DNA of 40,518 nt, from IMG/VR virus record IMGVR_UViG_3300032093_000313, positions 1 through 40,518 of that record; one strand, 5' to 3'. The position numbers and the translations under genes are program-made. Positions 21,880-24,405 of the stretch are shown here, in pieces. Within the stretch, counting starts at the first letter, position 1; each line of letters starts with the position of its first letter. The notes below the pieces were generated by a model. That model was not told the DNA's origin. It saw only the letters and a program-made list of their open reading frames with translations, and made no database searches. Origin of the DNA: a virus.

Positions 21880-22503
21880 TTAGAACTCGTCGTCGTCTGC
21901 CGCAACGGGCTTCGGAGCCGGGGCAGGCTTCGGAGCAGGCGCAGGAGCGGGAGCTTCAGCAGCGCCGTCCATAGCCTCGGGGCGAGCCACCCACGACACG
22001 ATCGACCACTTCGGAGCCTTAAAACGCAATTCTCCCTGCGGAGAGTTGATCTTAACCGTTTCTAGGCCGGAGACCTCGACGACGGGAACCTTGCCGGGGT
22101 TCGCCGCCTGATCGGCCAAAAATTGATTGTGGAGAGCGTCGATCGAGCGCAGCAGGGTCTTCGAGCTGTGCGAGAACTCACGCAGGCCGAGCGCCTTCGA
22201 GTAGATGCGGATGCGGAACGCCTGCTTGTGTTCAGGCGAAGGCTGCGCCGGCATACGCTCGCCGTACTTGACCATGTGGAAGTCGGGAGCGCCCGACGAG
22301 AAGGACAGCCAGCCGACCTCGATGTTAGCGAAGTCGAAGACCGCCTTGAACGGCAGCGCGACCTCTTCCTCGACGTTCTCCCACATGCCGTCACCGCCCT
22401 GCACGCGCTTGCGTGCAATGAAGTCGCCCGACTTCGCGTCGAACTTCACGATCGGCAGGATGTCGCCCGACGAGCGACCTTCAGTATTGAACCCTAAAGC
22501 CAT
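21880..22503 (-). CDS. SSB-like single-stranded DNA-binding protein
   Basis: 207 aa. The first 150 residues form a beta-rich domain (GDILPIVKFDAKSGDFIARKR, FKAVFDFANIEVGWLSFS, FRIRIYSKALGLREFSHSSKTLLRSIDALH, KVPVVEVSGLETVKI). Next comes an Ala/Pro/Lys linker (about 178-200) and the tail AADDDEF, an acidic tip with a terminal Phe like that of SSB proteins, which recruits repair and replication enzymes. It is encoded between a Mom-like gene and the primase-helicase. No OB-fold motif can be proven by eye. Confidence 0.65.
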   Translation of the reverse strand: MALGFNTEGRSSGDILPIVKFDAKSGDFIARKRVQGGDGMWENVEEEVALPFKAVFDFANIEVGWLSFSSGAPDFHMVKYGERMPAQPSPEHKQAFRIRIYSKALGLREFSHSSKTLLRSIDALHNQFLADQAANPGKVPVVEVSGLETVKINSPQGELRFKAPKWSIVSWVARPEAMDGAAEAPAPAPAPKPAPAPKPVAADDDEF

Positions 22504-23149
22504 AGTTCACCTTTTCACCATAGTGCCACTGATCCCCGTGGCCGGGATTGATGTTGTCCACTGGCTGCACATGGCGCTTCTGCGCGCTTTGCAGCCGGTA
22601 GATGAACCTGTGTTTTGAGACGCGCGGGACGCGGACGATCTCGGTGCCGACCGGCACATGGCTGCGCCGCGCGAACTTCTTTCCTGTAGCCGCGCAGGCA
22701 TAGTCGAAGCGAGGCGTTTTGCGCTCCTGATCGGTGCGCCCGTCGCTGATCCAGTTTGACGCGCGGTAGATCACGCCAGAGTGGTGAGCCGACGGATCGG
22801 CGTAAGAGACCAGCATCTCGACATCCTTGCGATGCCGTTTGATGTATTTGATCGCTCGACCAATGAAGAACGTCTCGGTGTTTGTCGGCATGCTGTCGCT
22901 GATCCACAGACGGGCCAGCTCCCATGTCGTGCATCCGTACCGCTTCATGGTCTCGCGTGGGGGCAGAGCGAACACAACGACGCCGACAGGCTGATCGTCA
23001 AGGAACAGACCGAGCGTCAGCACGCACACACCGGGCCACTTGCCGAGATAGTGCTGGCGGATCATTGCGTCGGCATCCTTCCGCTCGATCTCACGAACGA
23101 AGCAGCGGGAGCGCATGGCACGATCGAAGACTTCACCCTCTGGCCTCAC
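22481..23149 (-). CDS. Mom-like DNA-modification protein (GNAT-related)
   Basis: 222 aa from GTG at 23149, which overlaps the HNH stop as GTGA. RQHYLGKWPGV (about 31-41), LGLFLDDQPVGVVVFALPP (47-64), TWELARLWISDSMP (75-88) and LVSYADPSAHHSGVIYRASN (113-132) are the conserved blocks of the Mu Mom-like family, a GNAT-fold group that modifies adenine in phage DNA to evade restriction. C-terminal FARRSHVPVG and KHRFIYRL are also typical. It would protect progeny genomes. Its 3' end overlaps the SSB-like gene by 23 bp. The chemistry of this homologue is not known. Confidence 0.78.
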   Translation of the reverse strand: MRPEGEVFDRAMRSRCFVREIERKDADAMIRQHYLGKWPGVCVLTLGLFLDDQPVGVVVFALPPRETMKRYGCTTWELARLWISDSMPTNTETFFIGRAIKYIKRHRKDVEMLVSYADPSAHHSGVIYRASNWISDGRTDQERKTPRFDYACAATGKKFARRSHVPVGTEIVRVPRVSKHRFIYRLQSAQKRHVQPVDNINPGHGDQWHYGEKVNYGFRVQY

Positions 23150-23166
23150 TGCGTTGCCCCATACCA
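23144..23166 (-). repeat. Junction repeat at the 3' end of the HNH gene
   Basis: 23-bp stretch covering the last six codons and stop of the HNH gene (WYGATQ-stop) and the GTGAGG start of the Mom-like gene. It matches 23650-23672 at 19 of 23 positions; the four differences are all transitions. Confidence 0.8.
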
Positions 23167-23655
23167 AGAGCTTCCACGAACTATTCGTTGAATAGTTGAA
23201 CGGTGAACGCCGAATTTTTCTGCAAGGCCGGCTGTGGTCAGCATGTGATTACGTTCATGCGCGCAATGATTTGCGCGGATGTATTCGACATCTGCGGCAG
23301 TCAGCTTTGAGTTGCCGTTCTTTTCGCCGTGATGTGGCTTGCCGCCAATCTTGTTGCGGCCCTTAATCATCATGTCAGCGACGTTGTCGCCCCATGTTCC
23401 TGTGAACAAGTGATCGGGATTGACGCAGCTTGGGTTGTCGCACTTGTGGCAGACAATCTTCCCGTCGGGGATAGGGCCGCAAAACAACTCATATGCGAGC
23501 CTGTGAGCCTTGAGATATTTGCGCGTCTTGGCTTGCCGACTTCCAGTGCAAATGACGCCGTAGCCGTATTTGTCTGTGTATGCCGTCCACAACCAGCAGC
23601 CGCTGTTTGGTTCAGGAATGTGACGATCGTTGAAGTATTCGAGTGCAGACCTCAT
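23146..23655 (-). CDS. HNH homing endonuclease inserted between resolvase and Mom-like genes
   Basis: 169 aa from ATG at 23655, overlapping the resolvase stop as ATGA. N-terminal CWLWTAYTDKYGYGVI and KYLKAHRLAYELFCG are followed by VCHKCDNPSCVNPDHLFTGT (68-87), the HNH nuclease core with His70, Asn80 and His82. Then a NUMOD-like region (KLTAADVEYIRAN) and a C-terminal HTH (LAEKFGVHRSTIQRIVRG, about 144-161). Free-standing HNH genes of this kind spread by cutting alleles that lack them. Both ends mimic the junction between the flanking genes, so its insertion left both neighbours intact. Confidence 0.88.
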   Translation of the reverse strand: MRSALEYFNDRHIPEPNSGCWLWTAYTDKYGYGVICTGSRQAKTRKYLKAHRLAYELFCGPIPDGKIVCHKCDNPSCVNPDHLFTGTWGDNVADMMIKGRNKIGGKPHHGEKNGNSKLTAADVEYIRANHCAHERNHMLTTAGLAEKFGVHRSTIQRIVRGSSWYGATQ

Positions 23656-23672
23656 CGCGTTGCTCCGTACCA
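23650..23672 (-). repeat. Junction repeat at the 5' end of the HNH gene
   Basis: Covers the last six codons and stop of the RuvC-like gene (WYGATR-stop) and the ATGAGG start of the HNH gene. Partner of 23144-23166; together they bracket the HNH gene as imperfect direct repeats. Confidence 0.8.
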
Positions 23673-24119
23673 TGCGATCAAAGCTGCATCAGACCTACCA
23701 TCCCATTTCTTTAAACGGAAGAGCGAGGCGTATGCGGGAAAGAGTTCGACGGCCCGCAGACGGGAGCCATCCTTGCCGCCACGGACGCTGACGGCCTTCT
23801 GCCAAGCCTGCGGGGTGACGTAGTTCAACGGGACGTTGAGGCCAGCCAGCACGCCTTCGACGAGGCCCACGCCGCGTCCGAACTGGAACATCGAGCTGAC
23901 GCCCTGCCCCGGCATCGCGCCGACCTTCTCGATCCACGCGACGTTAGGCTTGAAGTCACGGATCGCTGCGGCCACGAAATGCGGGCTGATCTCGCGCTTG
24001 GTCTTGCCACCCCGCTCGATCTCAATGATCGGCATATCGACGATCTCGATCGTCATGGCTTCCATGTTGAAGAAGGCGAGTGCACCTGACGCGCCGGGGT
24101 CGATGCCGACGATCATCAT
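23652..24119 (-). CDS. RuvC-like Holliday junction resolvase
   Basis: 155 aa (154 if the second ATG at 24116 is used). IVGIDPGASGALAFF gives the first catalytic Asp (Asp7); VAWIEKV gives Glu64; VTPQAWQKAV is the family's central helix; and DGRSDAALIAWYG supplies the last acids (Asp140, Asp144). Full set of acidic residues, so likely active. It would resolve recombination intermediates or branched DNA before packaging. It ends in WYGATR directly before the inserted HNH gene. Confidence 0.85.
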   Translation of the reverse strand: MMIVGIDPGASGALAFFNMEAMTIEIVDMPIIEIERGGKTKREISPHFVAAAIRDFKPNVAWIEKVGAMPGQGVSSMFQFGRGVGLVEGVLAGLNVPLNYVTPQAWQKAVSVRGGKDGSRLRAVELFPAYASLFRLKKWDGRSDAALIAWYGATR

Positions 24120-24331
24120 TGCTGCGGCTCCACTTTGACGGTTGCGCCTAGAGCCTTAAGAAGCCTAAAAGCTGTGTCGAAATGGATGCCGCCGCCGTTG
24201 TGCTTCAGGAACCAATAGGCCCCATGCGACAGGCCAGCCTCGGCGCACAGCTTTCGCTGCGACACGCCGAGCCTGATGCGCTCCTTCTCGATAAGCCGAA
24301 CGACCTGTTCGGCGGATTGAATTGCGATCAT
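24116..24331 (-). CDS. XRE-family regulator
   Basis: 71 aa with a single HTH: IEKERIRLGVSQRKLCAEAGLSHGAYWFLKHNG (about 14-46), and a short C-terminal helix (AFRLLKALGATVKV). A minimal Cro/CI-like DNA-binding protein without an oligomerisation or cleavage domain. Weak ribosome-binding site. The gap just upstream (24332-24426) carries two palindromes that are candidate operators for it. Confidence 0.8.
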   Translation of the reverse strand: MIAIQSAEQVVRLIEKERIRLGVSQRKLCAEAGLSHGAYWFLKHNGGGIHFDTAFRLLKALGATVKVEPQQ

Positions 24332-24357
24332 TAGTGCGCCCTCGATGCTTCGCTCGA

Positions 24358-24405
24358 CCTAGCTAGGCCGTCTTGTGTTCTAGGCGCAAACAGGCACGCC
24401 TAGAA
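24358..24405. promoter_or_regulatory. Paired palindromes upstream of the XRE gene
   Basis: In the 95-bp gap 24332-24426: CCTAGCTAGG (24358-24367) is a perfect 10-bp palindrome, and TTCTAGGCG (24378-24386) pairs perfectly with CGCCTAGAA (24397-24405) across a 10-nt spacer. All share a CTAGG core. The spacing (about 20 bp between the centres of half sites) suits binding of an HTH dimer. Probable operators of the XRE protein. Confidence 0.55.

Follow-up and report, generated by a model that had tools for sequence, protein, structure and literature searches.

A probable homing-type HNH endonuclease cassette at the 3′ end of a phage ruvC gene

The repeated gene end at the ruvC-HNH junction

How does an endonuclease gene come to lie flush against a resolvase gene and to end in nearly the same letters as that neighbor? 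The question is raised by a 40,518-nt stretch of viral DNA (IMG/VR record IMGVR_UViG_3300032093_000313, positions 1 to 40,518; hereafter the window), on the minus strand of which an HTH gene (24331-24116) is followed by genes for a 155 aa RuvC-like Holliday junction resolvase (23652..24119; PHROG 1770, E=2.7e-33; Pfam RuvC, E=7e-4, below cut-off), a 169 aa HNH-HTH endonuclease (23146..23655), a Mom-like DNA-modification protein with a GTG start (22481..23149; Pfam Mom, E=1.4e-34; PHROG 1384), a 207 aa ssDNA-binding-like protein (21880..22503) and a primase-helicase (21802-19661). The same arrangement is found in a second assembly, L112 (IMGVR_UViG_3300008339_001428; 99.94% identity, 12,521 bp).

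The endonuclease belongs to the HNH_3 family (Pfam E=4.7e-14, above cut-off), and its match to PHROG 59 (E=1.1e-31) spans both the HNH part and the C-terminal helix-turn-helix, for which Pfam matches are sub-threshold only. The HNH_3 residues H70, N79 and H82 are present in the window protein and in its counterpart from a distant relative, L010. A group I intron as the carrier of the HNH gene was considered and rejected, as no Rfam match was obtained at E<=10 in 22300-24400 and the HNH open reading frame starts within the ruvC stop.

The last letters of ruvC (TGGTACGGAGCAACGCGATGAGG, 23672-23650 on the minus strand, with the gene ending at 23652) and those of the HNH gene (TGGTATGGGGCAACGCAGTGAGG, 23166-23144, same strand) are identical at 19 of 23 positions. 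This correspondence, reported in a preliminary description of the window, holds exactly as stated and has no equal elsewhere in the sequence: the ruvC 23-mer has no other match of at least 17 on either strand of the 40.5-kb sequence (81 kb), the next best being 16. The stop-start overlaps likewise read as first described, with ATGA joining ruvC to the HNH gene and GTGA joining the HNH gene to the Mom-like gene. The parts of the match differ in origin, some being native to each gene and some ruvC-derived. Its TGG encodes the conserved terminal Trp of the HNH family and is also RuvC's own Trp; ATGAGG is native to the HNH gene, that of L010 starting ATGAAATCT; and GTGAGG is native to the Mom-like gene, the relatives of which start ATGAAACC or GTGAAGCC, encoding M-K-P-(D/E). 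The proposal that the HNH gene carries its neighbor's start is accordingly not supported, each of the two hexamers being its gene's own start, and the informative copy shrinks to the 15 nt for YGATQ plus the stop codon, since the remainder is native to each gene.

Junction alleles and the HNH C-terminus

RuvC relatives were gathered from viral contigs and their junctions read, yielding 82 RuvC loci. In the closest relatives, L002 and L003 (92% identical to the window in RuvC and 93–94% in the ssDNA-binding-like protein), ruvC is followed after a 55–60 bp gap by the ssDNA-binding-like gene, with neither an HNH nor a Mom-like gene, and the junctions of L004-L009, L011 and L013 are of the same kind. 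L010 carries a 71% identical HNH protein behind RuvC, in the order RuvC, HNH, leader, ssDNA-binding-like gene, and has no Mom-like gene. The HNH gene is hence a presence/absence polymorphism at one site, present in the window and L010 and absent from L002-L009, L011 and L013, and three alleles were seen: empty, HNH-only, and HNH plus Mom. The earlier view of the HNH gene as an insertion that left RuvC intact is supported.

Members of the HNH family end in a conserved Trp followed mostly by 0–8 variable, unrelated residues, and the alignment stops exactly at this Trp in 54 of 63 HNH relatives. A WYG following the terminal Trp occurs in 0/63, and the YGATQ tail is likewise absent from all 63. 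In the window, HNH residues 165–169 and the stop codon (23146..23163, minus strand) form a RuvC-type tail, YGATQ-stop, the same five residues with which RuvC ends in the HNH-less L004, L006, L007 and L008. The claim that the HNH gene bears a copy of the resolvase end at its 3′ end therefore stands for these five codons and the stop, and falls for the TGG, which the HNH family owns. By these comparisons, YGATQ is an addition foreign to HNH proteins. Compared by eye over only 15 nt, the captured tail is identical at 12/15 positions to the ruvC ends of L004, L007 and L010, at 11/15 to that of the window and at 10/15 to that of L002; it looks L004-type in protein and ambiguous in nucleotides, and is too short for firm placement.

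In L010 the HNH gene ends TCTTCACAGTAATCCCGG, within which CAGTAATCCCGG is the exact ruvC end plus leader of the L004-type empty alleles; its terminus, CAG-TAA-TCCCGG, is the same as the ruvC terminus in those alleles. The old tail is shortened in L010, to SSQ-stop instead of YGATQ-stop, which leaves the last codon, the stop and the leader as the basis for a shared capture.

The foreign ruvC end and its proposed history

Comparison of the window ruvC with those of its relatives revealed a change of affinity, from L002-like to L010-like, about 70–72 bp before the stop codon. Against L002, 348/400 columns are identical (87%) over the opening 400 of the alignment and then 38/71; against L010, 281/400 and then 65/71 (about 92%). 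Informative sites are L010-like in 26/28 cases to the right of the breakpoint vs. 25/117 to its left, a partition not reached in any of 100,000 permutations (p<=1e-5). The mirror image is seen from L010, which is 91% identical to the HNH-less L013 upstream and 67% in the tail, and 64% identical to the window upstream and 91% in the tail. Third-position GC (GC3) falls from 0.84 over the body of ruvC to 0.42 over its tail, and the HNH core has a value of 0.60. The last 72 nt of ruvC (23652..23723, minus strand) are thus common to L010 and unlike the otherwise closest L002 and L003, and a pattern scan found this recoded end only in a sibling contig and in L010. Just two independent carriers have so far been identified. 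The tract is patchy at its edge, since the best breakpoints against L003 and for L010/L013 fall further upstream. The first description of the insertion as scarless is not supported: the final ~72 bp of the resident gene have been swapped for a foreign, AT-richer version common only to L010. Flanking co-conversion, a mark of a free-standing homing endonuclease gene, is found here, and the host gene has in place of its own 3′ end a foreign one carried by the nuclease element (tail 91% identical to L010 vs. 64% upstream, with a shift in GC3).

Sequence comparison is most simply read as joint movement of the HNH gene and the foreign ruvC 3′ end, with the resident end replaced in two lineages. We consider it probable that the HNH gene belongs among the free-standing homing-type endonuclease genes and moves as a cassette, preceded by a foreign ruvC 3′ end of its own and followed by the captured tail of the old ruvC. 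The ancestral state would have been a ruvC ending in AWYGATQ-stop, followed by a short leader and the ssDNA-binding-like gene. In a first, inferred step, an HNH coding sequence with a diverged ruvC 3′ end would have entered an L004-like ancestor at the last ruvC Trp codon, and because the terminal TGG of the HNH gene coincided with that of ruvC, the old YGATQ-stop would have become the HNH C-terminus. In a second step, evident from the comparison, the cassette entered the window lineage and L010, two phages that otherwise diverge; in each, some 70 bp at the end of the resident ruvC were replaced, and RuvC is still complete, as a hybrid. In a third step, for which the difference between alleles is seen and the order is presumed, a Mom-like gene would have been added separately in the window lineage, behind the HNH stop and ahead of the leader. 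The intact HNH motif, the position of the gene and the conversion tract lead us to infer that the HNH protein would cut HNH-less ruvC ends, with transfer driven by repair from a carrier.

Ordinary homologous recombination might instead have moved the ruvC end and the HNH gene together with no part played by the nuclease, as the group is mosaic elsewhere and L013 shows a significant breakpoint within ruvC against L011/L004. We regard this as improbable, given that the tract ends where the HNH gene begins in both carriers, that its composition is foreign and a nuclease gene adjoins it, and that the HNH motif is intact. Less credible still is the history first put forward, in which the interrupted junction was an overlap of RuvC with Mom and the HNH gene entered it, duplicating 23 bp of the junction. 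Removal of the HNH gene would formally give a WYGATQ-stop overlapping the Mom GTG start, but searches with RuvC, Mom and the nearest records found no such HNH-less allele, neither among the 82 RuvC loci nor among 54 other Mom-like loci (0 in each), none of which adjoins a close RuvC. No Mom-like gene turned up in the records searched for the 15 nearest relatives, the closest HNH-less relatives among those compared lack it, L010 has HNH without Mom, and the resemblance at the start codons lies in starts that each family has natively. Chance or convergence, for which the native Trp codon and overlap starts might speak, can be set aside almost entirely in view of the exact stop-anchored register of the 19/23 match, its being the sole match of at least 17 in 81 kb on both strands, the lack of YGATQ in 63 HNH relatives, the independent conversion tract next door and the HNH-less alleles.

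The cassette reading has counterparts in known systems, of which fungal mitochondrial gene hybrids come nearest. The mobile ORF of Allomyces macrogynus atp6 is named ORF360. In fungal mitochondria, a mobile endonuclease ORF that has inserted at the 3′ end of a gene supplies this gene with a foreign C-terminal end, fused in frame, while the gene's native end persists behind the ORF as a diverged second copy, and such hybrids occur in A. macrogynus atp6 and in Glomus sp. atp6, atp9, cox2 and nad3 (PMC3630166). The locus described here resembles the atp6/ORF360 hybrids in having a nuclease ORF at the 3′ end of a gene, a foreign gene end fused to that gene and what looks like the native end behind. 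It differs in lying in phage DNA and in encoding an HNH-HTH nuclease, the fungal ones being LAGLIDADG or GIY-YIG; the host gene here is a resolvase gene, and the remnant amounts to five codons and a stop that now serve as the C-terminus of the nuclease.

T4-like phages are on record both for co-conversion next to free-standing nuclease genes and for nuclease genes that overlap the stop of the gene before (PMC2988022), and the locus shares with the HNH and GIY-YIG homing endonucleases MobE, SegF and SegG a free-standing gene beside replication/recombination genes, a start over the upstream stop and flanking co-conversion (PMC2988022). The T4 cut sites are described as lying at distances of hundreds to thousands of bp from the inserted gene (PMC2988022), whereas here the altered tract directly abuts the HNH gene and takes in the end of ruvC itself. 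Invasion of an essential phage gene by a nuclease gene is likewise known from Aeh1 nrdA/mobE and T4 gene 60/mobA (PMC2988022). Aeh1 nrdA and T4 gene 60 are split in pieces, but ruvC here is whole, because its replacement end came with the nuclease. A literature search conducted mostly outside subscription journals returned no earlier phage report of gene-end replacement of the fungal type, which is weak evidence of novelty. The locus would be a phage case of a selfish nuclease swapping the end of an essential-type gene and making the discarded end part of itself. If true, this would explain how nuclease genes can lie flush against essential genes without harm; the model predicts a cut site at the HNH-less ruvC 3′ end, and gene-end repeats at overlaps could be read as fossils of such insertion events.

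The leader pseudoknot, the Mom-like gene and neighboring cargo

The leader of the ssDNA-binding-like gene contains a compact H-type pseudoknot, CCCGGCCACGGGGATCAGTGGC (22525..22546, minus strand), with stem 1 CCC/GGG and stem 2 GCCAC/GTGGC. All 8 pairs form in 13/13 aligned leaders, with compensatory changes in 2 pairs. A scan in which the stem-2 letters were mostly left free returned 85 distinct matches, 34 of them with all four free pairs formed, and an RBS-like stretch and start codon follow in 30 of these 34 vs. 9 of the remaining 51. The pattern, CCCGGCNNCGGGGNTCAGNNGC, lies about 15–30 nt before start codons, in front of genes for the ssDNA-binding-like protein, Phage_gp49_66 and other small genes, in the window and in L002, L004, L010, L011, L020, L039, L109, L114, L129, L150, L323 and others. 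The upstream stop precedes the pseudoknot by 1 nt in 17/42 contexts and by 6 nt in 11/42. Rfam 15 gave no match for it, and the leader pseudoknot is a candidate new cis-regulatory RNA, apparently undescribed.

A rather doubtful possibility is that the fusion point between the HNH gene and the old tail is under selection. The upstream stop would have to sit 1 (or ~6) nt before this widespread leader, which would control the next gene via the terminating ribosome, and by re-using the old stop the cassette would render its insertion neutral for both neighbors.

The window pseudoknot lies inside the Mom-like coding sequence. The last ~24 residues of the Mom-like protein (~200–223; 22484..22555, minus strand) match the leader downstream of RuvC in 7 relatives; relatives without a Mom-like gene are matched because these residues come from the leader and start of the following gene, read in frame. 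Most Mom relatives end before this extension. Unlike them, the Mom-like gene runs through the pseudoknot and overlaps the ssDNA-binding-like start by 23 nt (22481-22555), and because it does both, its read-through may couple or disturb translation of the ssDNA-binding-like gene. The presence of HNH without Mom in L010 shows that HNH does not need Mom; the two may have entered the window lineage in either order.

The 207 aa product of the gene behind this leader is mostly beta strands and ends in an acidic tail, DDDEF. No Pfam family was found for it, its only match in the annotated phage collection is MW202711, and its AlphaFold model (pLDDT 77) has no significant fold match in the PDB. Significant BFVD matches of the model carry no function name, and those to named ssDNA-binding proteins are not significant, so that the ssDNA-binding identity is putative.

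The interval from RuvC to the ssDNA-binding-like gene is a cargo slot, being empty or holding HNH, HNH plus Mom, or other genes (L010, L015, L020, L021, L029, L039, L045, L056, L061). Its further contents include small ~80 aa open reading frames and, identified by eye only, a pair of PAPS-reductase-like and GNAT-like genes in L021. Several HNH-less relatives have another HNH gene, distinct from the one described here, behind the ssDNA-binding-like gene (L011:5140-5444, L007:5161-5385, L013:2262-2489).
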